64,000 nt of DNA from Symbiodinium natans. Taxonomy: Eukaryota > Sar > Dinophyceae > Suessiales > Symbiodiniaceae. Each line of letters starts with the position of its first letter. Within the stretch, counting starts at the first letter, position 1. Of the stretch, positions 13,648 to 62,642 are shown one piece after another. The stretch is taken from assembly GCA_905221605.1 (NCBI GenBank), contig CAJNDS010000020.1:1-64000 (forward strand), in the 5' to 3' direction. The notes below the pieces were generated by a model that made no database searches, was not told the DNA's origin, and saw only the letters and a program-made list of their open reading frames with translations. A program made the translations under genes and the position numbers.

Positions 13648-14017
13648 GGTAAACCCTAAACCCTAAACCCTAAACCCTAAACCCTAAACCCTAAACCCTA
13701 AACCCTAAACCCTAAACCCTAAACCCTAAACCCTAAACCCACCCTTTCCCCAAACCCGCAAGCCAAAAGCCGTGGGAGCCTCAAGCAGAAAAGCCTTCAA
13801 ACCCTGAGATCCGTAGCGCCCCTTGTACCAATCGTAACCACTCCACCCTAGACCCTAAACCCTAACCCTGAACCCTGAACCCTAAACCCTAAACCCTAAA
13901 CCCTAAACCCTAAACCCTGAACCCTAAACCCTAAACCCTAAACCCTAAACCCTGAACCCTGAACCCTAAACCCTAAACCCTAAACCCTAAACCCCACCCT
14001 CCCCTTCCACACTGGAG

Positions 14018-14115
14018 GCCCTGGGCCTGACTGCGTCCCCGACGGCAGACTCCGCCAAAGCCGGCGTGCTGGCAGGCGAGGCCCTAGAAACTCTGCAGTC
14101 GATACACCCTACAGG
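14018..14115 (+). CDS. Putative mini-exon, (CCCTAAA)/(TTTAGGG)-flanked
   Basis: After ACACTGGAG the frame reads ALGLTASPTADSAKAGVLAG and EALETLQSIHPT, ending at GG|GTTTAGGG. A second plus frame is open. Product unknown. Confidence 0.4.
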
Positions 14116-15180
14116 GTTTAGGGTTTAGGGTTTAGGGTTTAGGGTTTAGCCCCACACCCCGACTCCGAACCCTTGAATTTGTTGGAAGGTTTTGATTTTG
14201 GGGGAGTTTGTCTCAGTAGGATTTTTCTGTTCTATGAATGGGCTACACCATCGAGTTCAAGGGGGAGGGTTTGGAGTTTAACGCTTACAGGATTTCGGGC
14301 TCAGGGCTTTTCGGCCAGCTTTCATTCTGTGCCCCTGCAACCCTAAATGCGAAGAGCTCTGGACCCCTAGCCTGCGCCCGAGCTCAACTCCACACCCAAT
14401 TTCAAAAGTGATTGGGTGCTACAGGGTGTTGGAGGTACCTCATAAATGCGCGGATATTGTGGCTTTTTGAAAGCAGCCCAAAAAGATCGGTGCACATCCT
14501 CGGCGAGTGTTGTGGAGGTTAGCTCCAAACCCTCAACCCTGCCCCCCGACACCCTAAACCCTAAACCCTAAACCCTAAACCCTAAACCCTAAACCCTGAA
14601 CCCTGAACCCTAAACCCTAAACCCTAAACCCTAAACCCTAAACCCTAAACCCTAACCCTCTTTTTGTGCGGTTGAAGAGAAGCCCTGAAACTGCTTAGGG
14701 GTCATGGTTCAGAGTTTATAGGGTTTAGGGTTCAGGGCTTGGGGCAAACCCCAAGCTCGGAACCACGCAGCCTGCAAACTCTCACGAATTACCCTAACCC
14801 CTAAGCGGTTTAGGGTTTAGGGTTTAGGGTTTCGGGTTTAGGGTTTAGGGTTTCGGGTGATCAATGCTAAACCCTAAGCACTGAAGCCTCAGCTCCCTAG
14901 CCTTCATGCCACGCCAGGAGAGCAGCCGAACAAATGGGGCCCAAGTGGCCCGGTAACTCAGCCTTCCGGTGAGCAGGATTTGGGTGGGGGGGGCGGGGGG
15001 GCGGGGGGGGGGGGGTTTGGGGGTTTGGGGTTTGGGGTTTAGGGTTTGGGGTTTAGGGTTTAGGGTTTAGGGTTCCTCAGCCTTCAGCCTAGGTAGGCCT
15101 TTGGGACATTTCATATTCCCCCTTCTTGGGTTTAAGTGGATAATAATGTTTCGGGATCTTTTTTTGTCAGAGGGTTTTTT
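14116..15180. other. Array-rich stretch without resolved gene
   Basis: Contains arrays at 14,115-14,150, 14,550-14,660, 14,808-14,865 and 15,020-15,073, a G run at about 14,986-15,015, and one doubtful island at 14,880-14,970 (frame LHATPGEQPNKWGPSG, ending near GTGAGCAG). No other coding evidence. Confidence 0.4.
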
Positions 15181-15305
15181 CTTACTGTTGGTTAGCAGGG
15201 AATGAGGGAATTAATGAGGGCCATATATATATATATGTATACACCCTTTAAGGGAATACATAGGGTACGTCGTTCCCCCCCCATTCCCTGCGAGCCAACA
15301 GTAAG
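15181..15305. mobile_element. MITE-like element, family A copy 1
   Basis: 125 bp with 24-bp terminal inverted repeats (CTTACTGTTGG..CAGGGAATG, two mismatches) around a TA-rich centre. The inner GGGAATGAGGGAAT is shared with copies at 21,409, 40,745 and 54,500. No coding capacity, so non-autonomous. Confidence 0.75.
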
Positions 15306-15593
15306 TTTAGGGGTCATCCTAGCAGGTGATCAGGATGTGGAGGTTGAGCCTGCAAGGGTTTCGGGGGGCTTTGGGTTTTTGAGTTCAAGGTTTTTGGGTT
15401 TTCAGGGCTTTGGGTTTTTGATTTGGTCGGTTTAGGGTTAAGGGTTTGTGGGTTTGAGGTTTCGTGTTCTGGGTTTGAGGGATTTGAGTTTTGGATTCGG
15501 AAGGTTTAGGGTTTAGGGTTTACGAGTGTTGGGCTTTGGAATCGGAAGGTCAATATAGGGTTTGCGGGCTTTGGGGTTGGGCTTCGGAAGTTT

Positions 15594-15717
15594 TACAGGG
15601 TGGGGCCCCCTAGTTATAAGTAGAGTTATAAGGGCCCTAATTTGGGTTATAAGGACCCTAAGTTAGGTTATAAGTCCCTTAACTACAGTTAATATAGTAA
15701 GGGGGCCCCACCCTGTA
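15594..15717. mobile_element. MITE-like element, family C
   Basis: 124 bp with a perfect 18-bp terminal inverted repeat, TACAGGGTGGGGCCCCCT at the left and its complement at the right. The interior repeats GGTTATAAG several times. Single copy in this window. Confidence 0.75.
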
Positions 15718-16255
15718 GTAGTGTGTGGCTCAGGGATGTAGATTGGGATTTGGAAGGTTGAGGGTCCGTAGGTTGGTGTGGGCTTTAGGGCTTAGGGTTT
15801 ACATACCCTATACCTTAAACCCTAAAGGTTCAGAAGCCTAAGGGATTCGTTTTTTGTTCTTGTTTTTTTCACGGCTTAGGGTGAAGAACGCCCTTTTAGA
15901 CAACACGCTTTCGACACAAAATGTTGTCTAGTGTGGGCCTCTTCGAAGCCGGGCCCAATATCAAACCCCTGGCATGCCCCAAACCCTACATTCCTCTCAA
16001 GGAGAGAGTAGGTTTCCTATTCTTTCGTGCCCGCACCTGGTAGATACATACAGTGCCCTCCTTTCTATTCAAGAAAATGGCACAGGACTGACATCTGTGC
16101 CTAAAGCTCAGACGGTCTTCACCTACATGCTTGTCCCCTTCGTTTAGACCCTAAACCCTAAGCTAAACCCTAAACCATCGTTTGGATACTTTTTGCATCG
16201 ACTACCTTCATCCCTTCCTTCAGGCAGGCACGTCTAGCTATTGACAAGGAAGTCT

Positions 16256-16382
16256 TGGGATAATCCCCCTTATACTGACAGTCCTTCATGGGATAATGAC
16301 AAAAATCAGAAGAAGAACAATAACATGTAGGAGGTACTGTAGTCCCTATTAAGGAGCTGTTCGTATAAGGGGGAACATCCCA
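16256..16382. mobile_element. MITE-like element, family E copy 1, with empty-site evidence
   Basis: 127 bp. Terminal inverted repeats of nearly 40 bp start TGGGAT, then CCCCCTTATAC and ACAG. The flanks carry AAGGAAG on both sides (16,246-16,252 and 16,383-16,389), a 7-10 bp target duplication. The duplicated upstream region of the second ankyrin gene has a single AAGGACG at the matching place and no insert. It lies 25 bp before the start codon of the first ankyrin gene. A second copy is at 24,021-24,115. Confidence 0.85.
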
Positions 16383-16406
16383 AAGGAAGCATTCCCAGTC
16401 CATGCC

Positions 16407-17498
16407 ATGCTGTGTGTTTGGAGCGTTTCTGGGCAAGTGCTGGCCAGCGGCACGTTCGAAAACCTGACCGCCTTGAAACACCACTTGCGAAGCCAGCATG
16501 GCTTCCCGGCCTGCCTTCAACAGCTCCTACTGGCTGGTCGATGCTTGGACTCGGGTGATCCTCAGCCTCTGGTCGGGCCCGCTGACCTGCAGCTGGTACT
16601 GTTATCCACCCTCAGCCCGGAGCAGATGCCTCAGGCTGAAGACGAGTTTCTTGGGTATGCTGTCGACACAGGCCATGTGGAAGTTGGCAGTGCTTTGCTG
16701 GCAGCTGGTGTCGACAAGGACGTGCAGACCTGGGAGTGGAATGGCATGACCGCTCTCATGCATGGCTCTCAGAAGGGCAACATCGACTTTGTGCGTTTTC
16801 TGCTGGACGTCGGTGCTGACAAGGACTTGCAGGACGGGTCCTACCAGACCGCTCTCATGCACGCATCTGGCGAGGGCCACGTCGAGATTGTACGTTTGCT
16901 GCTGGATGCTGGTGCCGACAAGAACTTGCAGAGCAGATCGCGCGAGACAGCTCTCATGAACGCATCGTGCATGGGCCATGTCGAGGTTGTACGTTTGCTG
17001 CTGAACGCGGGAGCAGACCAAAACTTGCAGAACAGATCCTCTGTGACTGCTCTCATGCACGCATCTGGCAAGGGCTTTGTCGAGATTGTACGTTTGCTGC
17101 GGGACGCTGGTGCCGACAAGGACTTGCAGGACGGTTCCGGCCAGACCGCTCTCATAAAGGCATCGATCATGGGCAACATCGACACTGTACGATTGCTGCT
17201 GGACGCTGGTGCGGACAAGAACTGGCAGAACATGTCGGGCGAGTCACCTCTCATGAACGCATCGTTCAAGGGCCACGTGGGGATCGTACGTTTGCTGCTG
17301 GACGCTGGCGCCGACAAGAACTTGCGGAACAGATCGGGCGAGACAGCTCTCGTGCACGCATCGTTCATGGGCCACGTCGAGGTTGTACGCTTGCTGCTGG
17401 CGGCTGGTGCCGACAAGAACTTGCAGGACCAGTCCGGCCAGACGGCTCTCAAGTACGCATCTTCCGAGGGCCACTACGAGATTGCATGCTTGCTTTGA
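16407..17498 (+). CDS. Ankyrin-repeat protein with N-terminal ubiquitin-like module, copy 1
   Basis: Intronless, 363 codons, ATG at 16,407 and TGA at 17,496. Residues 1 to about 85 (MLCVWSVSGQVLASGTFENL, then LKHHLRSQHGFPACLQQLLL, DLQLVLLSTL) resemble the ubiquitin-like N-terminal module common on dinoflagellate ankyrin proteins. From about residue 100 there are eight or nine 33-residue ankyrin repeats of the form TALMHASGEGHVEIVRLLLD AGADKNLQ; the last is cut after EIACLL. Ankyrin repeats bind other proteins; the partner is unknown. There is no signal peptide or membrane segment. The other long frames over it, on both strands, are repeat shadows. It is a tandem duplicate of 18,453-19,565; the last three repeats are almost identical while the middle repeats differ. 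A MITE lies just upstream and another just downstream. Confidence 0.9.
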   Translation: MLCVWSVSGQVLASGTFENLTALKHHLRSQHGFPACLQQLLLAGRCLDSGDPQPLVGPADLQLVLLSTLSPEQMPQAEDEFLGYAVDTGHVEVGSALLAAGVDKDVQTWEWNGMTALMHGSQKGNIDFVRFLLDVGADKDLQDGSYQTALMHASGEGHVEIVRLLLDAGADKNLQSRSRETALMNASCMGHVEVVRLLLNAGADQNLQNRSSVTALMHASGKGFVEIVRLLRDAGADKDLQDGSGQTALIKASIMGNIDTVRLLLDAGADKNWQNMSGESPLMNASFKGHVGIVRLLLDAGADKNLRNRSGETALVHASFMGHVEVVRLLLAAGADKNLQDQSGQTALKYASSEGHYEIACLL

Positions 17499-17521
17499 GC
17501 TACAGTCGACCAAACAGCCCT

Positions 17522-17639: not shown

Positions 17640-18452
17640 CCCTAATCTCCGAAGCCCAGCCCTGGCCCTAGGGGAAGCTTGTAGCCCTGTACGCACCCGA
17701 AAAGCATGGACCCTGAGATCAAGCCCTGTACGAACCTGTAGGCACAGAGGATCCCGCTGTTTCAAGGTGTTGAGGGCTCTTTTCCATGAGGGTTTAGGGT
17801 TTAGGGTTTAGGGTTTAACGGACTACTGTGTTTAGGTTGTAATCGGGTGGTTGGTGTTTGTTCCGGGTGGCCTGGATTCAGCGTCTGAGGGTTGGTCGCA
17901 GCTTCTGTCAACTCTCCCAGATATTCCTTACAAGGGCAATCTAAGGATTATTTGTCTTTTTGCATTCTTTTGGGGTTCTTTAGCAAGTAGTAGGTTTGAA
18001 GATCAGCCGCTTTGCATCTCAGCAACCTTTGCAAGGTTTTTTTTTGGAATCCTGATCATGGTTTGAGGATCTGGGGGTTTTATCGTGTGGGCCTCTGCGA
18101 AACCGGGCCCAAAGCCAAACTGAAACCTTGAGCTCAATTGCCAACTAGGGTTTAGGGTTTAGGGTTTAGGGTTTAGCGCACGCCCGAAACCCTAAATTCC
18201 TCTCAAGAGGGGAGTGTAGGTTTCAGGTTCCTTCGCGCCCGAAACTGCTTGGCTTCAAGATAGCTACAAAGGACTGTCAAGAGGGAATGTTCAGCACGTC
18301 TTCCCTTCATTGCATATATAGATAATCAACATCTGTCATCTCTACCTAAAGCTCAGACAGTGCTAGCCTGCATATGTTTGAGATATTTGTTCACCGTTTA
18401 GTTTCATCCCTGGCGTCTAGCTATTGACAAGGACGCCCTTCAGGTCCACGCC
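17640..18452. other. Intergenic region between the ankyrin duplicates
   Basis: Contains TTTAGGG arrays at about 17,788-17,815 and 18,147-18,176, a family I fragment (17,921-17,993), and from about 18,085 a region matching 15,930-16,255 upstream of copy 1 (shared GTGTGGGCCTC, CCGGGCCCAA, TTCCTCTCAAG, TCTAGCTATTGACAAGGA). The duplication therefore includes more than 300 bp of 5' flank. Confidence 0.7.
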
Positions 18453-19565
18453 ATGCTGTGTGTTTGGAGCGTTTCCGGGCAAGTGCTGGCCAGCGGCACG
18501 TTCGAAGACCTGACCGCCTTGAAACACCACTTGCGAAGCCAGCATGGCTTCCCGGCCTGCCTTCAACAGCTCCTACTGGCTGGTCGATGCTTGGACTCGG
18601 GTGATCCTCTGCCTTTAGTCGGGCCCGCTGACCTGCAGCTGGTAGTGTTATCCACCCTCAGCCCGGAGCAGATGCCTCAGGCTGCAGACGAGTTTCTTGG
18701 GGCTGTCAACACAGGCCATGTGCAAGTTGGCCGTGCTTTGCTGGCAGCTGGTGTCGACAAGGACTTGCAGACCTTGGACTGGAACGTTCTCATGCGTGTA
18801 TCTAAGGAGGGCAACATCGACTTTGTGCGTTTGCTGCTGGACGCCGGTGCTGACAAGGACTTGCAGGACGGGTTCGGCCAGACCGCTTTAATGCATGCGT
18901 CTTGCGAGGGCCACGTCGAGATTGTACGTTTGCTGCTGGATGCTGGTGCCGACAAGAACTTGCAAAACATATTGGGCGGGACAGCTCTCATGATCGCATC
19001 TGGCCAGGGCTTTGTCGAGATTGTACGTTTGCTGCTGGACGCTGGTGCCGACAAGGACTTGCAGGACGGGGCCGAGCAGACCGCTCTCATGCGCGCATCG
19101 ATCATGGGCAGCATCGACACTGTACGATTGCTGCTGGACGCAGGTGCCCGCAAGGACTTGCAGGGCAGGTACGGCCAGACTGCTCTCATGCGCGCAACGA
19201 TGATGGGCAACATCGACATTGTACGTTTGCTGCTGGACGCTGGTGCGGACAAGAACTGGCAGAACATGTCGGGCGAGTCACCTCTCATGAACGCATCGTT
19301 CAAGGGCCACGTGGGGATTGTACGTTTGCTGCTGGACGCTGGCGCCGACAAGAACTTGCGGAACAGATCGGGCGAGACAGCTCTCGTGCACGCATCGTTC
19401 ATGGGCCACATCGAGGTTGTACGTTTGCTGCTGGCGGCTGGTGCCGACAAGAACTTGCAGGACCAGTCCGGCCAGACGGCTCTCATGTGTGCATCTTCCG
19501 AGGGCCACTACGAGATTGTACGCTCGCTCAGAGGTAAGTCCGCCAAGCACGAAGTATGTCCGTAA
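18453..19565 (+). CDS. Ankyrin-repeat protein with N-terminal ubiquitin-like module, copy 2
   Basis: 370 codons from ATG at 18,453 to TAA at 19,563. The first 85 residues differ from copy 1 at only a few sites. Ankyrin repeats 3-6 differ in order and sequence (ALMIASGQGFVEIVRLLL, ARKDLQGRYG, ALMRATMMGNIDIVRLLL), whereas the last three match copy 1 almost exactly, suggesting unequal exchange between repeats. Copy 1 ends EIACLL; copy 2 continues EIVRSLRGKSAKHEVCP. A consensus donor GTAAGT lies at 19,535 (after CTCAGAG), so the open-frame C terminus may be replaced by a spliced exon. No insertion precedes the start codon, unlike copy 1. Confidence 0.88.
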   Translation: MLCVWSVSGQVLASGTFEDLTALKHHLRSQHGFPACLQQLLLAGRCLDSGDPLPLVGPADLQLVVLSTLSPEQMPQAADEFLGAVNTGHVQVGRALLAAGVDKDLQTLDWNVLMRVSKEGNIDFVRLLLDAGADKDLQDGFGQTALMHASCEGHVEIVRLLLDAGADKNLQNILGGTALMIASGQGFVEIVRLLLDAGADKDLQDGAEQTALMRASIMGSIDTVRLLLDAGARKDLQGRYGQTALMRATMMGNIDIVRLLLDAGADKNWQNMSGESPLMNASFKGHVGIVRLLLDAGADKNLRNRSGETALVHASFMGHIEVVRLLLAAGADKNLQDQSGQTALMCASSEGHYEIVRSLRGKSAKHEVCP

Positions 19566-20879: not shown

Positions 20880-20952
20880 GGCCCAGTGGCCACTTCGGCC
20901 TTTTCGAGTACAAGCGTCCTGGAGCTTGTGGACGAGTGCAAGGCGTCAGGGG
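20880..20952 (+). CDS. Putative mini-exon
   Basis: After CAGTAAG one frame reads PVATSAFSSTSVLELVDECK ASG and reaches GTGGGTTTGG. A second frame through the island (AGACGRVQGVRG part) is also open. Right flank is a degenerate TTTGGGG array. Confidence 0.35.
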
Positions 20953-21119: not shown

Positions 21120-21275
21120 CTCAATTCCCAGGATGTGGGATACTGGCTTCTGCTGCACATCGTGCCGCACGGTATGCCCAGGCTACTCAGCTTAGTTGCG
21201 AAGGGCTTTCGCTCTTCAGGTCTCAACGGCCACCCAGAGTCATACTATAGCTAGAAGTTCAACGTGTAGGGATTA
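21120..21275 (+). CDS. Putative mini-exon, boundaries unclear
   Basis: Frame GILASAAHRAARYAQATQLS followed by CEGLSLFRSQRPP is open; a second frame (LLHIVPHGMPRLLSLVAKGF) is open as well. Left flank CCCTAGACCC, right flank TTTAGGG array from about 21,275. Confidence 0.3.
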
Positions 21276-21855: not shown

Positions 21856-21950
21856 AGCCAGGCTCAGTTCTGCGGAGTCTACAGGAATCGCAGTGGATGC
21901 TTGGGGAGGCCGCGTTTTGTAGGGCCCCTCACGCGGTTCGGTTTCGGTTT
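21856..21950 (+). CDS. Putative mini-exon, array-flanked
   Basis: Frame GSVLRSLQESQWMLGEAAFC RAPHAVRF runs from an AG near 21,860 to the TTTGGG/TTTAGGG array. Product unknown. Confidence 0.35.
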
Positions 21951-22870: not shown

Positions 22871-24020
22871 TTAGGGTTTAGGGTTTAGGATTTAGGGGTT
22901 GGGGTTTAGGGTTTAGGATTTAAGTATTAGGGTTTAGGGTGTAGGAATTTTGGGTTGAGAGCTCTCAGCCGTAAAGCGTTTTTGTTTCCAGGTTTTTGGA
23001 GTCTCGGGCGTATGTATACGCAGTATGATTTCATGGTGTAGGGCTTTTTGAGGCCTAAACCCTAAATAAACCTTAACCCTAAACCCTAAACCCCAAACCC
23101 TAAACCCTAAACCCTACAGCCTAAACCCTAAACCCTAAACCCTAAACCCTAAACCCTAAACCCTAAACCCCTTCAGGGCCTATAAGGGGTTTAGGGCAAG
23201 CAAGCAGGCTGGCAGTTGCTGGAATGGATTTGGTTCAACATGAGCCTTGGCTGAGCTTTGCTTAAACCCTACACCCGAGAACAGCCTCATCCCTAAACCC
23301 TCAAGTTTAGGGTTTAGGGATTTAGGGTCTAGGGTTTAGGGTTTAGGGTTTAGGGCTTGGGTGGGGCTTAGGGTTCAAGGTTTGGGGTTTGGGGATTAGG
23401 GTATAGCGTTTAGGGTTTGGGTGGGATTTAGGGTTTAAGGTTTAGGCTTTAATTTGGGGTTTAGGGTATAGGGTTTGGGGTTGAGGGTGCGCCACCTTGC
23501 TTAGCCAATAGCTGAAGCTTCAGCGTGTCGGGCTTAACTTACTTCTTTCGGAGATGCAAGCCTCTTCAGATCCCAGACGTAGCCTTCTTAGAGCTTCTTG
23601 CCCCCGAGAAGCGAACTTGTTTCCTGTTTTTAGGCTGGGGTTCCCGTATAATCCCCTTAAAATTTAAAAAGGGCACCGTGTTATTTCCTAGGTTGCCCCT
23701 GGGTCTAGGAAATCTGGGTTCTTCTCTGAAGGAGCTCAAGTTCAGTTACCAAAATCAGGCTCAGGGTTTGGAGTTCGGGTTTGGAGTTTAGGGTAATATG
23801 GATGCCCCATTTCTCGCAAGATAAATCTGTTTATGGCAATCTAGTACAAGTTCAATACCCTACGGATGACACGTGAATCTAACTCCACGACGAGAGCCCA
23901 GGGCTGGTGGGTTTAGGGTTTAGGGTTTAGGGTTTAGGGTTTAGGGTTTAGGGTTTAGGGTTTAGGGTTTAGGGTTTGTGGTTTGTAGGGTTTTGACGTT
24001 TCAGGGTTCAAGGGTTTGGG

Positions 24021-24115: not shown

Positions 24116-24224
24116 GGTGTAGGGTATAGCGTCAACCCGTAAACCCTAAACCCTAAACCCTAAACCCTAAACCCTAAACCCTAAACCCTAAACCCTAAAC
24201 CCTAAACCCCATGCGAACCTTAAG

Positions 24225-24314
24225 GAGCACCCCTTCCTTCCGGGCGGCCGTGGACGAGAACTTCCGACTCTTCGTGGTGATGGACGCCAGGCCGCGGTGG
24301 AGCGCATCTTCCGG
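24225..24314 (+). CDS. Putative mini-exon, array-flanked
   Basis: After CGAACCTTAAG the frame reads FRAAVDENFRLFVVMDARPR WSASS to GTTTAGGG. Another plus frame (FLPGGRGRELPTLRGDG) and a minus frame are open as well, so frame is uncertain. Confidence 0.35.
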
Positions 24315-24647
24315 GTTTAGGGTTTAGGGTTTAGAGTTTAGGGTTTAGGGTTTAGGGCCTGACCCTTGAGCCCTAAAGCCCTAAGCCTCATACCCCTGGT
24401 TTTCGCGGAGAGGTTGTAAGGTCTGAATTGAGGTGGCCTTGAAAAGCCCTTATGCCGAAAGCACCTGAACCCTACCTTGGCCCGCATGTTTGCTGGGCCT
24501 TAAACCTCAGACTCATAACCCTTCAATTCAAAAAACTCCGAAACCCCAAGCACCCCCCCCCCCCCCCCCAAACTCCCAAACCCTGAAGCCCTAAACCCTA
24601 AACCCTAAACCCTAAACCCTAAAACTCCGAAATTCCTTACGGTCCAG

Positions 24648-24719
24648 GGAGAGGTATATCGACTCCGCTCGGCGTGAGGTCCTTGCACGATGCGTCAAGA
24701 GATCAGCAACTTTCGTAGG
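24648..24719 (+). CDS. Putative mini-exon, array-flanked
   Basis: Acceptor TTACGGTCCAG, frame RYIDSARREVLARCVKRSAT FV, donor at the GT that starts a long TTTAGGG array (24,717-24,810). Confidence 0.4.
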
Positions 24720-25141: not shown

Positions 25142-25221
25142 CGGAGGTTGCCAGAGCTGCTGCCAGATTGGATCTTCCGCTCCAGCTGCAACGCCATCTG
25201 CCTCTTCGATAGCCAGACAGG
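25142..25221 (+). CDS. Putative mini-exon between two CCCTAAA arrays
   Basis: Frame LPELLPDWIFRSSCNAICLF DSQTGPCEA is open. The right flank is CCCTAAA/CCCTCAA rather than TTTAGGG, an exception to the usual order. The minus strand is open too. Confidence 0.3.
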
Positions 25222-26083: not shown

Positions 26084-26162
26084 AGCATGCGGGGGAGGCC
26101 TCTCTCTGCGTCCATGGCTCGAGCTCTCCCTCAACTCGCTGCGGAGGCCCTATGCAGTTGGG
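26084..26162 (+). CDS. Putative mini-exon, array-flanked
   Basis: Acceptor CAAAGCTCCAG, frame MRGRPLSASMARALPQLAAE ALCSW, donor at GTTTAGGG. Confidence 0.4.
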
Positions 26163-27863: not shown

Positions 27864-27952
27864 GAAGTCGCCGCTGATGCCCGAGATCTCGTCGCAGGTG
27901 GCGACGCCGACGAGCAGCAAGGCCCGGCACCTGAAAAAGGGTGGAAGTTAGG
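27864..27952 (+). CDS. Putative mini-exon, array-flanked
   Basis: Classic acceptor TCCCGCCTCCCAG, frame EVAADARDLVAGGDADEQQG PAPEKGWKL, donor at GTTTAAGGG. A second plus frame (KSPLMPEISSQVATPTSSKA) is open. Confidence 0.45.
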
Positions 27953-28621: not shown

Positions 28622-28698
28622 ACCCAGCGGAAAATAAGATGCACTTTCCTTGGCCGAAGGGCAAGTACGACCTCCTCGGCGGATTCAAGAGCCTCCAG
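28622..28698 (+). CDS. Putative mini-exon, array-flanked
   Basis: After AAACCCAG the frame reads PAENKMHFPWPKGKYDLLGG FKSLQ and ends at CAG|GTGCCATC before the TTTAGGG array. Both splice signals are good; residue mix is protein-like. Confidence 0.5.
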
Positions 28699-29431
28699 GT
28701 GCCATCACCCTAGGGCGTTGCTTGGTTTCGGGTTTAGGGTTTAGGGTTTAGGGTTTAGGGTTTAGGGTTTAGGGTTTCGGGTTTCGGGTTTCGAGTTTCG
28801 GGTTTCGGGTTTCGGGTTTAGGGTCTCTAAGGGGACTCAGGGATGGCTGAAGCACTCCAGCTCAACACGACGCCTCGCCGGATGACAGGATGCCGCCATG
28901 AACAGTCGACTCTCCGCCCAGGCCCGTTTAGGTTCTGGGGATTGGGGAGTGGGGTCTAGGGTTTGCGGTTTGGGGATTGGGTTTTAGGGAATGGGGTTTA
29001 GGGTTTTAGGGTTTAGGCTTGGGGTTTGGGGTTTTATGGTTTGGGGATTGGGGTTTAGGGTGTCGGGCTTGGGGTTTGGGCAGGATTTTGGGAGGGCTCA
29101 CATGTGGCAGAGCCTGTTGGGCTTCTGGTCAAAGGATCCCGGCTGTGCACCAGGGAAGACCTGCTAACCACCCTACAACCCTAAACTCTCGGGGCTCTCG
29201 GCCCCGGCAAGTGAAAGATTAGCAACTCTTGCCCGCTCTAGTGAGTTTACGGCTAAGTTTGGGTTTTTCTGATATTTTTAGTTCTGATTCCTGCGATAGT
29301 TGGTCATGATCTGCTTCTTTACTTTGCAGTGACGATGGTCATGATGGCTACTTGAGCTTGGAAGTAGCGTTAGAAGTACACTACATGAGGCTATACCATA
29401 GGAATGCCTGCCAGAACTTGAGGTACTTTCA

Positions 29432-29543
29432 ACTACTATTTGCTAAAGAACCCCAAAAGAACAAAAAAAATGATACTCCTCATATTACCCTAACAAGGAA
29501 GAATATTTTCTTATTCTTGGGGGGTTCTTAAGCAATTAGTAGT
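29432..29543. mobile_element. MITE-like element, family I copy 1
   Basis: 112 bp; ACTACTATTTGCTAAAGAAC at the left and GTTCTTAAGCAATTAGTAGT at the right form terminal inverted repeats. Related copies at 36,852, 55,712 and a fragment at 17,921. Confidence 0.75.
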
Positions 29544-29589
29544 CAACCATACATCTTCGGGAGCCAAAGTCTTCGACCCTACTTAGATG

Positions 29590-29690
29590 CCTCCACGAAC
29601 CTCCAAGTATGGGCAGGGGCGAATGGCCAGAATCACGTCCAGCACCGTGCTTTTCAGCCCCTCGGGCGGCACTTTTTTGAGATCCTGAGC
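29590..29690. CDS. Putative exon, strand unresolved
   Basis: Minus frame DLKKVPPEGLKSTVLDVILA IRPCP and plus frame GQNHVQHRAFQPLGRHFFEI are both open. Its left end abuts a piece resembling the family B terminus (GAACCTCCAAGTA). Confidence 0.25.
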
Positions 29691-30546: not shown

Positions 30547-30668
30547 CGTTTCAGAGGGACCATGAAATCCTGACAGCCTCTCTCAAGACCATGCCCAGCA
30601 CCCATTCTGAGGTCGCCTTACGCAGCCCAGCTTCGCTCCTCTTCTGAACTGAGGGACTGGTTTGTACA
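30547..30668 (+). CDS. Putative mini-exon, array-flanked
   Basis: Acceptor CACTGCAG or the CAG eight bases on. Frame AFQRDHEILTASLKTMPSTH SEVALRSPASLLF. It meets a TGA at about 30,646, so the donor must be earlier (GAG|GTCGCC) or the island is not coding. Confidence 0.35.
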
Positions 30669-31136: not shown

Positions 31137-31209
31137 GTTCTGAAGCTTGGGCTCTCCGCGCTGCGGCTATCCCTGCAACTGGATCCTTGCCTGCAGATGT
31201 CTTTTGGGG
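31137..31209 (+). CDS. Putative mini-exon, array-flanked
   Basis: After CCGAACTGAG the frame reads VLKLGLSALRLSLQLDPCLQ MSFG and ends at the GT of GTTTAGGG. Confidence 0.4.
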
Positions 31210-31858: not shown

Positions 31859-31944
31859 GTACTGGCTGCGGTGGCCGCGTGCGAGCGCGCCACGTGCCTG
31901 CCATCCGCCTGGCTGATGCGCGCGCGGCCTCTAGGACGGGGAGG
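31859..31944 (+). CDS. Putative mini-exon, array-flanked
   Basis: Acceptor CTGTGACCTTAG, frame VLAAVAACERATCLPSAWLM RARPLGR, donor at GTTTAGGG. Confidence 0.45.
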
Positions 31945-32248: not shown

Positions 32249-32333
32249 AAGCAAACTTACCTTGCTGGCAAGGAGGCCTAGACGCAGACTTGGCAGATGA
32301 GGTCGGAGGGTCAGCTTTGCCTCACCAAGAGCG
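32249..32333 (+). CDS. Putative mini-exon, array-flanked
   Basis: Acceptor CCCTACAACAG, frame ANLPCWQGGLDADLADEVGG SALPHQE, donor at GTTTAGGG. Confidence 0.45.
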
Positions 32334-44044: not shown

Positions 44045-44147
44045 AGCCATCCGGAGCTTTCTGGTGGCCAGGAGAGCCCGGCCAGCCTCTCCTCAAGGAC
44101 GAGGACGATGCGACGGCCATGACGGAGATCCTGAAGGCTTTGGTGGG
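44045..44147 (+). CDS. Putative mini-exon, array-flanked
   Basis: Acceptor CCCCACCAG, frame PSGAFWWPGEPGQPLLKDED DATAMTEILKALV, donor at GTTCAGGG. The minus strand is also open (RHGRRIVLVLEERLAGLSW). Confidence 0.4.
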
Positions 44148-45603: not shown

Positions 45604-45685
45604 AGCTCCTGTGCAGCTCCTCCCCTTGGTGGACCACAACTCGACTGTGCGCCTTGCGGGGGCTTCGCCGCAGATCTTTGCGTTG
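45604..45685 (+). CDS. Putative mini-exon
   Basis: Frame APVQLLPLVDHNSTVRLAGA SPQIFAL ends TTG|GTGGGG. Acceptor uncertain (GTGCAG inside would shorten it). Confidence 0.35.
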
Positions 45686-46676: not shown

Positions 46677-46753
46677 AGGCCTTGCCCTTCGCGCGGGCGA
46701 GGCCCGGCAGACTCTGGCTGTCTCCCCTGCCGTCGCTGTCGCTGAAGGACAGG
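46677..46753 (+). CDS. Putative mini-exon
   Basis: After GTTTCCTGAG the frame reads GLALRAGEARQTLAVSPAVA VAEGQ; the donor would be GC (ACAGG|GCTTTC). Preceded by a 160-bp CCCTAAA array. Confidence 0.35.
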
Positions 46754-46911: not shown

Positions 46912-46971
46912 GAGCACAGCGATGCGTCTTCCTCCGCGTCCCTGCCAATGATGGAGGACGGAAGAATTGGG
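46912..46971 (+). CDS. Putative mini-exon
   Basis: Acceptor CACCTGTAAG, frame EHSDASSSASLPMMEDGRI, donor at GTTTAC. Confidence 0.35.
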
Positions 46972-47215: not shown

Positions 47216-47308
47216 TTTTCGTGCATGCCGGGAGGATGAGTCGGAGGCGAGCGTGGAAGTCGAAGTCGATGAGGCCAGTGGAGGGCTCTCATGCGGCTAG
47301 CTACATAG
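47216..47308 (+). CDS. Putative mini-exon, array-flanked
   Basis: After GCGCTTCAAG the frame reads RACREDESEASVEVEVDEAS GGLSCG and meets a TAG just before the array, so an internal donor (GTGGAGGG) or another frame (QVFVHAGRMSRRRAWKSKSM) may be used. Confidence 0.35.
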
Positions 47309-48269: not shown

Positions 48270-48346
48270 ATGGACCCTTCCATGACCGAGGTCCAAGCTG
48301 GCGACCCCGTCGGTCATGAAAAACGGAAGGCGACCACGATCTGCCA
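48270..48346 (+). CDS. Putative mini-exon between arrays
   Basis: Frame MDPSMTEVQAGDPVGHEKRK ATTIC lies between two TTTAGGG arrays and ends CCA|GTTAGGG. No clear acceptor. Confidence 0.35.
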
Positions 48347-49369: not shown

Positions 49370-49441
49370 GGCAGCAGGGACCTCAAAAGGGGCCTCCATG
49401 TAGATACATCCATCGCAGCGGCAGTGGCAGCTGCCGTCCGC
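49370..49441 (+). CDS. Putative mini-exon
   Basis: After CAGGCAGCAG the frame reads DLKRGLHVDTSIAAAVAAAV RV up to the TTCAGGG/TTTAGGG array. Confidence 0.35.
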
Positions 49442-50369
49442 GTAGGGTTCAGGGTTTAGGGTCTAGGGTTTAGGGTTTAGGGTTTAGGGCTGTCGCAACG
49501 AGGTCTCCGGAGTGCAGACGCTTCAGTTGCTTGGCTTTTGTACTTCCTAAAGGGGTTTAGGGTTTAGGGTTTAGGGTTTAGGGTTTAGGGTTTAGGGTTT
49601 AGGGTTGCGACTTACAACGCTGTACTCCTTCGGTCCTTCGTGGCCTTCATATCTCTAAAGCTTCATCAATTCCCCAGCCCTTTATCTTAACCCTCCACCC
49701 AGACCTCTGCAAGCCCAAACCCACTGCAAACCCTAAACCCTGCAAATATTAAATCGCCAAAGCCCTGCAAACCCCAAACCCTGAACCCTAAACCCCTCAG
49801 TGATCCATGTGCAGGTCCCTTCTTGTAGCCCCCCCCCCCCCCCCCAACTCCCGGCAGCTTTGAATCTCCCAACTTCTTCCGCGCTGCCTAGCCCTACACC
49901 CTAAACCCTACTGTAAACCCTAAACCCTAAACCCTAAAACCCTAAAACCCTAAACCCTAAACCCTAAACCCTAAACCCTAAACCCTAAACCCTAAACCTT
50001 GACAGTCCGACCTTGGGTTCCTAAACCCCAAAACATAAACCCTCAGCCCAATAAACCCCCTATAAAAGCCTAGGGTTTTGGGTGTTGGGGGTGTTGGGTC
50101 GCCTTTAGAAAGCCGTATAGTCTACCAGAAACCTCTGAGAACCGGATCCCTAAACCCTACGTAGATACCACCCCAATCCCCTAAACCCCTAACACCCTAA
50201 ACCTACCCTACGACCCTAAACCCTAAAACCTAAACCGTAACCCCTAAACCCTAAACCCTAAACCCTAAACCCTAAACCCTAAACCCTAAACCCTAAACCC
50301 TAAACCCTAAACCCTAAACCCTAAACCCTAAACCCTAAACCCTAAACCCTAAACCCTAAACCCATCGAG

Positions 50370-50449
50370 GTTCCAGATTCCCTCCATGGGCGCGCTACCG
50401 AGCCAGGGCCCCAGCGGTGGTTGGGGAGTCGGTTGTCCCTTAGGACTGG
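50370..50449 (+). CDS. Putative mini-exon, array-flanked
   Basis: After CCATCGAG the frame reads VPDSLHGRATEPGPQRWLGS RLSL to a TTTGGGG array; preceded by a 120-bp CCCTAAA array. Confidence 0.4.
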
Positions 50450-51126: not shown

Positions 51127-51215
51127 CGTGACTCCAGGCAACTCGAGCGACGGGTCCCAGGAGGGGAGGGGTGAGTTCGAAATCTTCGACTGTGCCTCCA
51201 AAAGCTGGTCGGGGC
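51127..51215 (+). CDS. Putative mini-exon, array-flanked
   Basis: Classic acceptor CGACAACCCCACAG, frame TPGNSSDGSQEGRGEFEIFD CASKSWSG, donor at C|GTTTAGG. Confidence 0.5.
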
Positions 51216-51948: not shown

Positions 51949-52835
51949 GGGCGGAAAGGAAGCCGGGAAGGCAGCAAGCAGGAGAGTCTTCGGTTGCGCT
52001 GAACCCTGGCATCCTACACCCTGAACCTCTTAAGCTCTGGCGCCCAAAAGAAGCCCTGGGTTTAGGGTTTAGGGTTTAGGATTTAGGGTTTAGGATTTTA
52101 AGGAAATCCGACGTGCCTTGCCGCCAGGACGATGTGGAAGGCAAGGCGGCAAGCCAGGGTTTAGGGTTTGGGGTTTTGATTTTGGGGTTTAGGGTTTGGG
52201 GGTTAGGGTGTAGGGTTCAGGGTTTAAGTGTTAAGGGCTTTAAGGGTACAAGGACCCTTTGGGTTTAAGGGTTCAAGGGTTTAAGGGTGTAAGGGTTCAA
52301 GGGTTTCAGGGTTTAAGGGTTCAAGGGCTCAAGGATTTAAGGGTTTAAGGGTTTCAGGCTTTAAGGGTTCTAGGGTTTAGGGACTTTGCCGCCCACCTCC
52401 CCAATACTAGACGTTCTTAATGATGACTACATGAGTCATACACAAACGGAGTATTGGAGGGGTGATATCAACCCTGAACCCTAAAGCCAAAAGCCTAGAC
52501 CCTAAACCCTAAACCCTAAGCCCTAAACCCTAAACCCTAAACCCTAAACCCTAAAACCCCCCCCCCCCCAAAGCCCCAAACCCCAAGCCCCGGTTTTCGG
52601 GTCGTGTGGGGGGGCGCGTCGATGTTGCAGGACCAGGTCGCTGGTTCCCTATTCCCTGGTTTGCGCGGGGGGGGGGGCGGGGGGTGGGGGGCGCGTGGGC
52701 GCGGGGGGCGGAGGGGGGGGGTCTCCCCTAAACCTCCTCCCCCAAACCCCCGCAACCCTAACTAAACCCGAACCCCCGAACCCCCTAAGGCCCTAAACCC
52801 TGAACCTTAATTAACCCCTAGGCCCTAGACCACAT

Positions 52836-53119
52836 GAAGAGAGAGAGTTCAACGTGAAACCCAACGAGGCTTGGGGAAGCAAAAGCCCCGGCTCATCAGA
52901 AGTACGGGCGACAAAGGATGCGCCACGCACCTCTTCGACGCGGGAGTCCTGGAGAAGCTCATCTTCAGCGATCCGCTCTTCGAGTCACGCAGCATCAAGC
53001 ATGCCTCGATGCGCGAGCTCGCGAACGGGGTGCGGAAGAACATGAGGAAGTATGACTTCATGGCCTCAATGGACTTCGGTGCCTTTGACGGCTCCTGCAC
53101 ATCAGCTGTACGCGACTTT
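52836..53119 (+). CDS. RNA-dependent RNA polymerase-like fragment (virus-derived or RdRp-like gene)
   Basis: An open plus frame of about 95 codons. It contains QKPRLIRSTGDKGCA near the start, then LFDAGVLEKLIFSDPLFES, ELANGVRKNMRKYD and MASMDFGAFDGSCTSAVRDF. The D-x3-F-D-G pattern in DFGAFDGS matches motif A of positive-strand RNA-virus polymerases; the upstream PRLI segment, some 60 residues before, fits their nucleotide-binding region. The frame then meets GTGCACCCC, a possible donor, and runs into CCCTAAA-related sequence; motifs B and C (GDD) were not found nearby. Dinoflagellate-infecting RNA viruses have left endogenous copies in Symbiodiniaceae genomes, so this may be such a copy or one exon of a host RdRp-like gene. 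The minus strand frames look like shadows. Confidence 0.5.
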
Positions 53120-53149
53120 GTGCACCCCAAGCCCAACATGCCCTAAACC

Positions 53150-53833: not shown

Positions 53834-53913
53834 GGGTCCTGGAGAAGTGCCTGTTCGACCTCGAGAGCCAAACGGGCTCCAAAGAAGGCCTCGTCCATCT
53901 CCTCAAGGCCGGG
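53834..53913 (+). CDS. Putative mini-exon, array-flanked
   Basis: After TTGGCCCCAAG the plus frame reads VLEKCLFDLESQTGSKEGLV HLLKAG to GTTTGGGG. The minus frame LEEMDEAFFGARLALEVEQA is equally plausible. Confidence 0.35.
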
Positions 53914-54287: not shown

Positions 54288-54384
54288 CTGTCATATCCCC
54301 CGCCCAAGGCCACCATCACGTGCATCACCTCGAGCCATCTCTGTGAGGAAGACCCGGGGCCGGGGGGCCCAGAGGGTTCTCGGG
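54288..54384 (+). CDS. Putative mini-exon
   Basis: Classic acceptor CCCGCCACCAG, frame LSYPPPKATITCITSSHLCE EDPGPGGPEGS, donor at GTTTAGGG. Confidence 0.45.
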
Positions 54385-55589: not shown

Positions 55590-55675
55590 TCTTTCCCCAC
55601 GCTTGGCACAGGTCCGTTGCCCTGGAGTCGTCGTTGCAGGTGCGACGGGTGGCGTCTCTGAAGTCTTACGCGGTT
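55590..55675 (+). CDS. Putative mini-exon
   Basis: Acceptor GCTTGGCACAG. Two frames are open: RCPGVVVAGATGGVSEVLRG and SVALESSLQVRRVASLKSYA. Left flank is a TTTAGGG array. Frame cannot be chosen. Confidence 0.35.
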
Positions 55676-55711
55676 GAGTGGTTTAGGTTTGAGGGGGTTT
55701 AGGGCTTGCCT

Positions 55712-55810
55712 CCTGATTGCTTAAGAATCCCTCAAAAATGTACTCCTCCTTGTAAGGGCAATATGAGGATTTTTATCTTGTATGTTCTGGGGTTCTTAAG
55801 CCACTAGTAG
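55712..55810. mobile_element. MITE-like element, family I copy 3
   Basis: CTGATTGCTTAAGAATCCC at the left and GGGGTTCTTAAGCCACTAGT at the right. The interior CTTGTAAGGGCAATATGAGG matches the fragment at 17,921-17,993. Confidence 0.75.
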
Positions 55811-56428: not shown

Positions 56429-56589
56429 TAGCTTGGGGTACCAGAAAGGGCCCATACTTTGGAAAGTAGAGGTCGACCCACCCCTGGCCCCATATAGCAA
56501 GCCCTCAACAGCATGTGATTAATAACCTAAACCCTAAACCCTAAACCCCAAACCCCAAACCCTAAACCCTAAACCCTAAACACTTGCGA

Positions 56590-56663
56590 CGACGATTCTG
56601 GATTCTACGCCCCGGAAGAACTCAGGGTTGAAGATTTGAAGATCGTTCAGGAGCTTTACGGCG
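56590..56663. CDS. Putative mini-exon, array-flanked, strand unresolved
   Basis: Plus frame CDDDSGFYAPEELRVEDLKI VQELYG and minus frame AVKLLNDLQIFNPEFFRGVE SRIVVA are both open across 56,581-56,670. The plus donor would be GC. Confidence 0.35.
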
Positions 56664-56794: not shown

Positions 56795-56854
56795 GCCGAG
56801 TGGCGACGGCAGCGCCAAGAGATCGCCACCTGGGCCAATGGCATCTGCCGCGAG
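56795..56854 (+). CDS. Putative 20-codon mini-exon
   Basis: Acceptor ACATGAGCAG, frame AEWRRQRQEIATWANGICRE, donor GAG|GTGCCA; phase 0 at both ends. Confidence 0.4.
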
Positions 56855-57285: not shown

Positions 57286-57539
57286 TGTTTACCCAAGGAG
57301 TGCGAGTCAAACCCTAAAACCCTAAAACCCTAAAACCCTAAGATAGCGAAGGTCACTCCCCCAGTGCCCTTCATGGTGGGACGCAGCTTACTTCCCTAGC
57401 GAGCTCCCTGCTAAGCCGGCCCTTCGGATGCCTACCAAGATGTACGCTCATCCTGTGTTACAGCATGGGTCTAACCCCAATTAAGATATACTAGGCTCTT
57501 GGTATATCCTCTGTCTCTAGGAGTTATTAGGGGCGGAAT

Positions 57540-58738: not shown

Positions 58739-58861
58739 CTGACCTCCGGTGCTCCTTCGTGCGCGCTTGCCCGCGGCGCGTCCAGGCACGGAGCCTCCTC
58801 CGGGGACTTCGTGAAGGCTTCGACACGCTGAGCCTGCGGCTCACCCTGAAGCTGAGGCCGG
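58739..58861 (+). CDS. Putative mini-exon, array-flanked
   Basis: Frame DLRCSFVRACPRRVQARSLL RGLREGFDTLSLRLTLKLRP is open over the whole island to G|GTTTAGGG. The acceptor may be CGCGTCCAG inside. GC-rich; other frames are also open. Confidence 0.4.
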
Positions 58862-60324: not shown

Positions 60325-60500
60325 ATTAGGCGCCAGGCACTTGCTTCATCTGGCACATGTCCGGGCCGCGCAGGCCATTCCCCAGGCCCAGACACGGAAC
60401 GGTCCCTAATTTTAACGCTACGCGACCCGCCTCGGCCCGGCCCAGCGCATCCGCGTGAGCATGGTGATTCCGCAGCGCCCAAGTCACTGGACCCCAAGCA
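60325..60500. CDS. Candidate GC-rich exon, strand and frame unresolved
   Basis: Plus frames ALASSGTCPGRAGHSPGPDT (55 codons) and PGTCFIWHMSGPRRPFPRPR, and a minus frame SDLGAAESPCSRGCAGPGRG, are all open, as expected at this GC content. Function unknown. Confidence 0.25.
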
Positions 60501-60892: not shown

Positions 60893-60940
60893 GTCCTGGC
60901 GAACCGTCCGCTGGCGGAATCCGGGGGGTATTTATTTGAG

Positions 60941-61045
60941 GCCGGTTCCGAAAAAGGGCTTTGGGTGTGGAGGATTTGGAGGGGGGTGCCTGTACACCTC
61001 CGGCCCGAGGCCTCGGCGGATTCACATCGGCTATCCCTTTTTAGG
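60941..61045 (+). CDS. Putative exon
   Basis: After TTATTTGAG the frame reads GSEKGLWVWRIWRGVPVHLR PEASADSHRLSLF and ends near GTTTGGGG. Confidence 0.35.
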
Positions 61046-61149
61046 GTTTGGGGTTTCGGGTTTCGGCTTTAGGGTTTAGGGTTCATGTCAATCCCTTTCT
61101 TAAGGAATGACCCTCCAATCATATCCCCAGCACAAAGTACTTCTGAGGC

Positions 61150-61185
61150 ATATTCCCTCATTTTAGGGATGGTGTCCCTAAATGA
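61150..61185. other. Short perfect hairpin
   Basis: CCCTCATTTTAGGGA and TCCCTAAATGAGGG pair around GGTG; possibly a remnant of an inverted-repeat element. Confidence 0.6.
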
Positions 61186-61439
61186 GGGATAGTGGCGTCT
61201 CCGTGTCGCAGTACGGCACTGTGTGGATCCTAAACCCTAAACCCTAAACCCTAAACCCTCTATAGACCTAAACCCTAAACTCCACAGGGGGGCAGAAGTG
61301 TTAGGGTGGTGCATTATCCTACTGCAAGCCCGCCCTTAATAAGCCCGGGTAGCAGGTTCTGAAACAACGGCTTTTGGTTGTTGAACCCAGGTCCTGGAGT
61401 CCTTGTTGCTGAAGTTGGGGTTGGGTTTAGGGTTTAAGG

Positions 61440-61655
61440 TTTAGGGTTTAGGGTTTAAGGGTTTAAGGGTTTAAGGGTTTAAGGGTTTAAGGGTTTAAGG
61501 GTTTAAGGGTTTACGGGTTTAAGGGTTTAAGGGTTTAAGGGTTTAAGGGTTTAAGGGTTTACGGGTTTAAGGGTTTACGGGTTTAAGGGTTTAAGGGTTT
61601 AAGGGTTTAAGGGTTTAAGCGTTTAAGGGTGTAAGGGTTTAAGGGTTTAAGGGTG
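61440..61655. repeat. (TTTAAGGG)n octamer array
   Basis: About 26 octamers with occasional TTTACGGG; a homogeneous local variant of the block's unit. Confidence 0.95.
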
Positions 61656-61667
61656 AGGGTTTGAATC

Positions 61668-61735
61668 CGGCTTTTACCCTTGTAGAAGTGTTGCATAAAC
61701 GACATGAAGGCTCTGGCCGGAGAAAGCCCCTATGT
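61668..61735 (+). CDS. Putative mini-exon
   Basis: After ACCCTTGTAG the frame reads KCCINDMKALAGESPYVLSP EA, then TAA inside a CCTAAGCCC array. Left array is TTTAAGGG, right array CCCTAAG, so the usual order is reversed here. Confidence 0.3.
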
Positions 61736-61802
61736 CCTAAGCCCTGAAGCCTAAACCTTAAAAAACCCGAAACCTTAGACCTTATGCCTCAAGCAGAAAC
61801 TC

Positions 61803-61938
61803 TAAGCCCTAAGCCCTAAGCCCTAAGCCCTAAGCCCTAAGCCCTAAGCCCTAAGCCCTAAGCCCTAAGCCCTAAGCCCTAAGCCCTAAGCCCTAAGCCC
61901 TAAGCCCCAAGCGGAAGCCCTAAGCCCTAAGCCCTAGC
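61803..61938. repeat. (CCCTAAG)n variant heptamer array
   Basis: About 18 heptamers with A to G at the last position of CCCTAAA, homogeneous apart from one interruption. Confidence 0.95.
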
Positions 61939-62123
61939 CACCCTCAGCCCGAAAACCTTCTAAAGGTCAACACCCCCCCCCCCCCCCCTCTGACCCCTAA
62001 CCCTAAACCCTAAACCCTAAACCCTAAACCCTAAACCCTAAACCCTAAACCCTAAACCCTAAACCCTAAACCCTAAACCCTAAACCCTAAACCCTAAACC
62101 CTAAACCCCCCATTCGTCTTGAG

Positions 62124-62197
62124 GAGACGGCGGAGATCCGCCCGCCCGCCATGAGCCTCGGGGACTGCCCAGCAGAGGTGGCCCAAGGAGAGTTTTG
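62124..62197 (+). CDS. Putative mini-exon, array-flanked
   Basis: After CATTCGTCTTGAG the frame reads ETAEIRPPAMSLGDCPAEVA QGEF and ends TTTTG|GTTTAGGG. Confidence 0.4.
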
Positions 62198-62642
62198 GTT
62201 TAGGGCTTGGGGTTTAGGGTTTAGGGTTTAGGGTTTAGGGTTTAGGGTTTGGGGTTTGGGGTTTGTGGTTTAGGGTTTGGGGTGTAGGTTTTGGGGTTAA
62301 GGGGTTTGGGGGGTGTAGTCCGCTACCCAAATTAACGACGCTGAAAATTAGGGTTTAGGGGGCTTGGGTTTAACGTCGAAGTTCATCTCTGCTTAAACAG
62401 GGTTGTACAAGGTTGTAAGCAGAAACAACTACAAGTCGTGTCCGGCGACAACTTTGTTTATTCCGGGAACCAAGCCCCCAAGCCCTAAAACCAAACCCTG
62501 AGCCGATGACCATGAAGCTTGCGGGGCTCCCTTTGCTTTGTGAGAACCGGACAGAAAGGAACTGCTCTATCTTGGGATGATCCCCCCCCAGGTTCGAACA
62601 ATCCTAATAGGTAAACCCTAAACCCTAAACCCTAAACCCTAA

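Follow-up and report, generated by a model that had tools for sequence, protein, structure and literature searches.

Short interstitial telomeric sequences (ITSs), i.e., non-terminal tandem telomeric repeats, have been surveyed in mammals, where 31% of the human ITSs are intronic, a share said to fit random insertion; the accessible part of that study also asks whether intronic telomeric repeats might affect splicing (PMC7215372). We analysed positions 1-64000 (the window) of a 254,257-bp contig from the 759-Mb assembly of the dinoflagellate Symbiodinium natans (most likely strain CCMP2548), in which arrays of the telomere-type heptamers CCCTAAA and TTTAGGG are likewise non-terminal (the contig has 552 that reach 21 nt, which thus count as ITSs) and many are intronic. 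In contrast to the mammalian ITSs, their position and orientation follow the splice sites: exon-flanking arrays sit just inside most splice sites of one long gene, with TTTAGGG after the donor and CCCTAAA before the acceptor.

Complementary AC/GT repeats that bridge the ends of an intron have reportedly been found to replace U2AF2, in work attributed to Lin et al. (Genome Res 2016). The S. natans introns are similar in that complementary simple repeats lie near both ends of one intron (5' TTTAGGG and 3' CCCTAAA arrays are both in place in 20/44 window introns and in 28/65 introns overall), but they differ in the telomere heptamer unit, in the statistical independence of the two ends, and in having exon-enclosing stems that would compete with bridging. 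Splicing elements of introns include G runs close to donors and C-rich tracts close to acceptors, and the arrays have the same polarity, the difference being that here telomere-type repeats supply it at most introns of the gene. A known G-rich simple repeat also lies non-randomly near splice sites; the S. natans unit differs from it and is strand-polarised between the two intron ends. Introners of Amoebophrya and other dinoflagellates, according to the accessible text of PMC7789003, carry inverted repeats of 8-20 nt together with direct repeats of 3-5 nt that overlap the boundaries, and their hairpin is said there to permit the joining of exon boundaries. In both cases the introns are those of dinoflagellates and have inverted, complementary stretches towards their two ends, whereas the S. 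natans arrays are roughly 20-250 nt long, lie about 30 nt inside the intron, and accompany no common intron sequence that could be seen by eye. In the related dinoflagellate Polarella glacialis, one simple repeat, (TTG)n, has also expanded genome-wide (about 19% of the genome), but the unit is different and an exon-linked placement is not mentioned in the accessible part of the paper (PMC7245778). Among the matches listed, judged by title and the start of the abstract, there was no open-access paper on exon-flanking telomeric arrays, and the string 'telomer' is absent from the main text of the genome paper that is the most likely source of the assembly (PMC8045281).

Gene identity and exon mapping

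Candidate exon peptides were read on the + strand, mostly out of the GC-rich islands between arrays, and chained as a search query. Among 7998 candidates scored, the sole protein match at E up to 10 was P0001, a 1311-aa protein of Symbiodinium sp. CCMP2456 (E=8.7e-80, 39% identity across 99% of the query). A spliced alignment blind to the arrays, in which acceptors had to be AG with no credit for the next G and donors were limited to GT, GC or GA, placed P0001 residues 189-892 collinearly over 14018-62180. A second alignment, in which a profile of three homologues was used and AG|G was credited, yielded 45 exons, and 562 of the 703 aligned residues are identical to P0001; a low-identity exon of the first alignment (63597-63647) was dropped. 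A model built from the mapped exons led to P0005, a 380-aa protein deposited for S. natans, and all 380 of its residues are identical to the window via 25 exons, including exons of 13, 23, 23 and 28 nt. P0005 starts at 35004, shortly before exon 19. P0005, together with homologous proteins from other sources (P0001-P0004), lends indirect support to the predicted removal of the introns from the mRNA. The S. natans gene pipeline, as described in the accessible part of PMC8045281, used Iso-Seq and retained a model if transcripts or two or more ab initio predictors backed it, and P0005 may rest on either kind of support.

The final set contains 45 exons (median 46 nt, range 13-76 nt), taken from P0001 up to 33875 and for 35013-35069, from P0005 up to 56854, and from P0001 thereafter. 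A weak P0001 exon (49390-49426) was dropped because it is absent from P0005, the exon at 48291-48329 was added from P0005, and the terminal P0005 exon (57352-57396) was left out because it is not common to P0001. This last exon bears the stop of P0005, while the homologue P0001 continues at 58786 and beyond; the deposited P0005 model is probably truncated at both ends. P0001 residues 1-188 and 893 onward had no convincing match within the window, and the gene resumes on the contig at 100401-126588.

Acceptors read AG|G at 41/44 introns in the first alignment, where the G was not credited, and at 42/44 in the final set. Among the three donor types allowed, window donors were GC at 32/44, GA at 6/44 and GT at 6/44, and 30/44 donors of the final set had AG|G. 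AG|G at splice junctions is the usual dinoflagellate pattern. Since the introns carry the spliceosomal-type dinoflagellate signature (AG|G acceptor with GT, GC or GA donor), their sequence features place them among spliceosomal introns, and the window gene is predicted to be of the spliceosomal type, split into tiny exons.

Orientation and position of arrays at splice sites

Arrays of the same orientation at most 40 nt apart were merged, with a minimum of 14 nt for the window scan; on the sense strand, G denotes TTTAGGG and C denotes CCCTAAA. The window contains 186 merged arrays of at least 14 nt, 185 of them within 13649-62643, a zone that has the same extent as the exon-dense portion of the gene. 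At this threshold, positions 1-13648 have none except one 16-nt stretch at 5924, and 62644-64000 have none. These two flanks hold no arrays of at least 21 nt and contain long open reading frames (ORFs), several of them on the minus strand.

Counting arrays of at least 21 nt within 100 nt of a splice site, we found the first array after the donor to be TTTAGGG in 34 cases and CCCTAAA in 5, while the last array before the acceptor was CCCTAAA in 27 cases and TTTAGGG in 9 (Fisher P=4e-8). At least one array of this length is present in 43/44 window introns, and the orientation bias was steady when the minimum was set to 14, 28 or 42 nt (P between 1.4e-8 and 1.4e-6). Restricting the count to the 23 introns of P0005 gave 18G/2C at donors and 12C/7G at acceptors (P=8e-4). 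Internal intron arrays of the window were unbiased (38G/33C overall, 20G/18C in the first half and 18G/15C in the second half of introns), and the orientation rule is therefore confined to splice-proximal arrays. Exon 7 (24225-24290), for example, is preceded at 13 nt by a CCCTAAA array (24137-24211, repeat unit on the - strand) and followed 21 nt after its donor by a TTTAGGG array (24312-24358, + strand). The intron between exons 20 and 21 has a TTTAGGG array 20 nt 3' of its donor (35650-35717, + strand) and a CCCTAAA array ending 11 nt 5' of its acceptor (36068-36268, - strand).

The placement is sharp as well. A G array lies within 60 nt of 29/44 donors (random placements: mean 6.9, maximum 16) and a C array within 60 nt of 24/44 acceptors (mean 5.4, maximum 13). 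When the same arrays were reshuffled within the same introns 5000 times, 0/5000 placements reached the observed proximity, so that the random insertion described for ITSs does not hold here. With arrays masked, in introns of at least 300 nt, GGG outnumbers CCC threefold towards the 5' end (126 vs 41 of 1831 triplets), and towards the 3' end CCC outnumbers GGG (117 vs 37 of 1778 triplets).

The initial annotation, made from the letters of the window, had read each intron as beginning and ending in an array, with the exon ending at the GT of GTTTAGGG. The sides it assigned to the two orientations are borne out far above chance, but the arrays are not the termini. A median of 33 nt of non-array sequence separates donor from array and 31 nt separates array from acceptor, and arrays make up 10-11% of the introns' first and last 20 nt (8.6% G array on the 5' side, 9.7% C array on the 3' side). 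The proposed donor was found at 0/65 donors, the arrays starting a median of 33 nt downstream and most window donors being GC. Of nine acceptors it had named, four are exact (exons 10, 16, 21 and 24), one is within 2 nt (exon 18), and four do not belong to this gene (offsets 11, 24, 332 and 523 nt). Its assignment of the DNA to a dinoflagellate was correct.

GC-rich islands bounded by CCCTAAA on their left side and by TTTAGGG on their right, also noted at that stage, were confirmed: 45 were found in the window, 49-236 nt long (filter about 30-258 nt). Mapped exons are contained in 25/45 of them (these islands are 85-145 nt long), and conversely 25/45 window exons lie inside such islands; the other 20/45 islands (49-236 nt) are without a mapped exon. 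Many of these islands are thus, on the alignments, predicted exons of one long + strand S. natans gene, and the exon reading stands for these islands rather than for all. Over the whole contig, gaps of 80-139 nt make up 95/158 of the C-to-G gaps, as against 27/158 G-to-C, 33/128 G-to-G and 27/107 C-to-C gaps. Counted by gap length on the contig, CCCTAAA-gap-TTTAGGG exceeds the opposite orientation at 85-115 nt (58 vs 25) and 145-175 nt (288 vs 53), but not at 285-315 nt (60 vs 90) or 485-515 nt (78 vs 96). Two islands without a P0001 or P0005 exon (56585-56662 and 24626-24714) look coding by eye and are possible extra, skipped or other-gene exons.

Replication outside the window

The hypothesis was fixed on the window, and 21 further introns of the gene, mapped afterwards, served as a held-out set. 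They gave 11G/5C at donors and 13C/2G at acceptors (P=0.003), so that all 65 introns together show 45G/10C at donors and 40C/11G at acceptors (P=5e-10), with internal arrays at 55G/52C. Within contig positions 1-127500, the share of bases covered by arrays was binned by distance to the closest exon of this gene: it amounts to 10% at 1-20 nt, 49% at 20-50 nt, 60% at 50-100 nt and 25% at 100-200 nt, falls to 17% at 200-800 nt, 7% at 800-2000 nt and 0.6% at 2-5 kb, and climbs again to 3% at 5-20 kb. The intron that follows exon 45 is 38 kb long and array-poor; together with the array-free, ORF-rich flanks of the array zone, this indicates that array density tracks exon density.

Beyond the gene (127-254 kb of the contig), 47/90 C-to-G gaps measure 80-139 nt, compared with 53/217 of the other gaps (P=4e-6), and C-to-G gaps of 60-160 nt are more coding-like than others (66 vs 75 gaps, P=2e-6). 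The 192 ab initio exons predicted there have 57G/31C downstream and 56C/27G upstream (P=3e-5). This trend fades with stricter exon scores (21/12 and 22/12 at a score of at least 3, P=0.03; 7/3 and 6/2 at a score of at least 6, P=0.15). The gene finder predicts 84 exons in the window and recovers 30 known exon starts there, and its false exons dilute the orientation test on predicted exons. Among the peptides predicted at 127-254 kb, matches to ResIII helicase and MOSC_N reach or exceed the Pfam cut-offs and ankyrin-like stretches also occur, and this variety of families indicates that the pattern is not that of one odd gene. In four stretches of other contigs picked regardless of arrays (L029-L032), 9/11 C-to-G gaps measure 80-149 nt vs 10/29 others (P=0.012), nearly all of the signal coming from L032, with L030 being array-free. 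Two further stretches, L033 (taken from the list of C-gap-G matches) and L001 (taken from an array search), were excluded; adding both gives 19/23 vs 15/52.

Genome-wide, the 28-mer (CCCTAAA)4 has 852,709 forward and 853,942 reverse overlapping matches, compared with 10 and 21 for a reversed-sequence control. A rough extrapolation from this one contig gives ~0.88 million arrays, or 8% of the assembly, and exact matches set a strict lower bound of about 12 Mb of array sequence. The pattern (CCCTAAA)2-N85-115-(TTTAGGG)2 has 107,320 overlapping genome matches, a number that covers this one orientation and from which no orientation conclusion follows.

Interpretation of the array layout

We tentatively favour, at somewhat less than even confidence, the interpretation that the arrays are independent G-rich and C-rich splice-proximal elements built of telomeric repeats. 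Interstitial telomeric repeats, already abundant in the genome and perhaps arising by telomerase-linked insertion or slippage, would have been kept or expanded where they were useful as splicing elements. After the donor, TTTAGGG arrays would supply dense GGG runs; before the acceptor, CCCTAAA arrays would supply a C-rich, G-free tract, which hence would hold neither AG nor a donor dinucleotide. The two ends would work independently of each other, marking very small exons amid large introns, and the pattern does not call for a paired RNA stem, although one may form. That the arrays act in splicing at all is what we infer from sequence, and their layout may help the recognition of very short exons. 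A wider form of this interpretation is a genome-wide exon-marking code, in which CCCTAAA before and TTTAGGG after exons would be read by the splicing machinery, through protein binding, a G-quadruplex or a duplex, to define microexons, and the sequence of chromosome ends would have been turned into a general splicing signal; we regard this extension as doubtful.

Several observations weigh against a role of the arrays as splicing elements. The excess of G runs and C runs in masked introns may be fed by decayed arrays. TTTAGGG occurs within 100 nt upstream of 9/44 acceptors even though it contains TAG|G, so that the wrong orientation is tolerated and any constraint must be soft; likewise, CCCTAAA accounts for 5/16 donor-side arrays of the held-out introns. 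Branch-point-like CTRAY before acceptors is not enriched (4/44 vs 3.7 expected), so that a supply of branch points by the arrays is not supported, and exon length is uncorrelated with the length of flanking arrays (rho -0.03). Arrays close to splice sites exceed internal arrays in length (69.5 vs 54 nt, P=0.005) but are no purer, and selection on the arrays is thus not directly shown. Among predicted exons beyond the gene, the 25 best-scoring ones (score of at least 9) have 4 nearby arrays and no trend, and those of L032 have 7G/6C downstream and 11C/2G upstream (P=0.10), so that the donor side is not replicated there.

An explanation without any function for the arrays is the healing of DNA ends, in which telomerase would heal intron breaks near exons and the ends would be rejoined with filler, making the orientation a by-product. 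After healing by telomerase, the left end invariably carries TTTAGGG and the right end CCCTAAA, which is the correct orientation to either side of an exon; arrays of this kind abound in the genome, and double-strand-break-linked insertion of telomeric repeats has been argued for mammals in the accessible part of PMC7215372. Uniform breaks, however, fail to predict the sharp placement near exons, direct TTTAGGG-to-CCCTAAA fusions are rare (4/158 G-to-C gaps on the contig are below 20 nt), internal arrays show no G-then-C order, and the two ends of an intron co-occur no more than expected, and we consider this origin unlikely. The last of these results also bears on the hairpin that the initial annotation had proposed, in which the 5' G array pairs with the 3' C array of the same intron and closes it. 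Although the sequences are complementary and are often both in place, pairing would make the intron ends interdependent, and no dependence was seen: co-occurrence does not exceed expectation in the 65 introns (OR 1.10, P=1, a sample in which only strong dependence is detectable), and array lengths at the two ends are uncorrelated (rho 0.24, P=0.22, n=28). A competing exon-spanning stem would have a much shorter loop (median 110 nt, 85-134, n=21) than the intron-closing one (642 nt, 87-5684, n=20), and in 11 minimum-energy folds the G array favoured the upstream C array in 6 cases and the downstream C array in 3, with the remaining 2 folds showing neither pairing (loops and folds were computed on the exon set of the second P0001 alignment). 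An intron-closing hairpin is hence not favoured, and we hold it to be very unlikely.

The shorter loop would instead suit an exon-enclosing bracket, in which the flanking C and G arrays pair with each other and hold the exon in a ~110-nt loop, which would serve to define the exon or would give rise to circular RNA or exon skipping. The narrow range of C-to-G gap lengths, along the contig and in the four stretches from other contigs, agrees with this, but co-occurrence across the exon is not significant (OR 2.15, P=0.26), array lengths across it are uncorrelated (rho -0.14), and little more than half of the window exons (25/45) lie inside a C-to-G island, making such a bracket distinctly unlikely in our assessment. 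Also suggested at the outset was an introner origin, with every intron copied from a transposable element and the terminal repeats of that element turned into heptamer arrays. Recently active introners are reported in dinoflagellates (accessible text of PMC11453091) and terminal inverted repeats are known in some introner families (accessible text of PMC9860276). Against this, the outermost 20 nt of the introns are mostly non-telomeric, the arrays lie inside the splice sites by the medians given above rather than forming terminal inverted repeats, and the intron ends are dissimilar by eye. The splice-junction AG|G resembles a short duplication and is also the usual dinoflagellate pattern. We find an introner origin of all introns extremely improbable. 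A self-comparison for empty and filled array sites yielded one candidate only: at contig C20:161120-161329, a CCCTAAA array lies within a 200-bp insertion that is present in one ankyrin paralogue and absent from the other, and the ends of the insertion look like an inverted pair by eye. This hints that some arrays may travel inside mobile elements.

Exon coordinates and other features of the window

All exons are on the + strand. Alignment to P0001 placed exon 1 at 14018-14075 (P0001 residue 189 on), exons 2 to 6 at 14918-14947, 20881-20942, 21132-21181, 21862-21908 and 23208-23241, and exon 7, described above, with 21/22 residues identical to P0001. The same alignment placed exons 8 and 9 at 25147-25220 and 26098-26146, exon 10 at 27864-27921, exons 11 to 15 at 28660-28698, 28889-28921, 29617-29656, 30612-30634 and 31137-31181, exon 16 at 31859-31934, exon 17 at 32273-32301, exon 18 at 33834-33875 and exon 19 at 35013-35069. 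Exon 20 (35584-35629) is supported by P0001 and exactly by P0005. P0001 and P0005 both support exons 21 to 23 (36280-36310, 37405-37443 and 38555-38615), 25 to 31 (40467-40502, 41584-41633, 42432-42471, 43174-43204, 44072-44136, 45617-45685 and 46679-46747) and 35 to 42, the last group comprising 49503-49525 (23 nt), 50370-50401, 51138-51160 (23 nt), 52128-52140 (a 13-nt microexon), 53834-53907, 54309-54358, 55612-55639 and 56795-56854. Exons 24 (39318-39383), 32 (46912-46956), 33 (47235-47273) and 34 (48291-48329) are from P0005, and exons 43 to 45 (58786-58856, 60337-60385 and 62124-62180) from P0001. Exon 45 closes the window set, and the one after it maps to contig position 100401.

Pfam gave no family at cut-off in the three family members scanned (P0001, P0003 and P0004), and PDB no relative for a profile of four members. 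PDB searched with the concatenated island translations gave no match, Pfam on single island peptides nothing convincing, and a scan of viral contigs no relatives of P0001. A midasin/dynein guess for one exon was not supported by the scores of Dynein_C (13.7 vs a cut-off of 25.7 bits, P0003) and MT (14 vs 24, P0004).

The 5.9-kb intron 2 contains two similar uninterrupted ankyrin-repeat ORFs on the + strand (16353-17498 and 18402-19565); most of the latter matches Pfam Ank_2 at 1.4e-64, and ankyrin-like peptides recur over the rest of the contig. A strongly coding + strand stretch at 52922-53137 lies outside P0001 and P0005. One motif in it is, by eye, reminiscent of an RNA-dependent RNA polymerase; Pfam returned nothing convincing. 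Imperfect palindromic elements of ~100 nt, resembling miniature inverted-repeat transposable elements by eye, lie in introns at 29430-29560, 36850-36970 and 55710-55810 and have similar ends of the CTTAAGAACCC...GGGTTCTTAAG type. A coding-like minus-strand ORF at 63489-63959, beside the array zone's array-free end, appears ASCH-like by eye, and Pfam assigned it no family.

Implications for dinoflagellate exon recognition

Splicing in dinoflagellates uses unusual signals, among them GC and GA donors and very small exons set in long introns, and exon recognition there is puzzling. A repeat that marks splice sites by position and strand would make exon finding testable, as the arrays can be deleted, inverted or swapped, and the C-to-G bracket may aid microexon annotation in such genomes. 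If the arrays are merely scars, their regular placement still records a striking process of insertion or retention. If they do act as splicing elements, telomere repeat biology would be tied to splicing in these organisms, a point left open for mammalian intronic telomeric repeats in the accessible part of PMC7215372.

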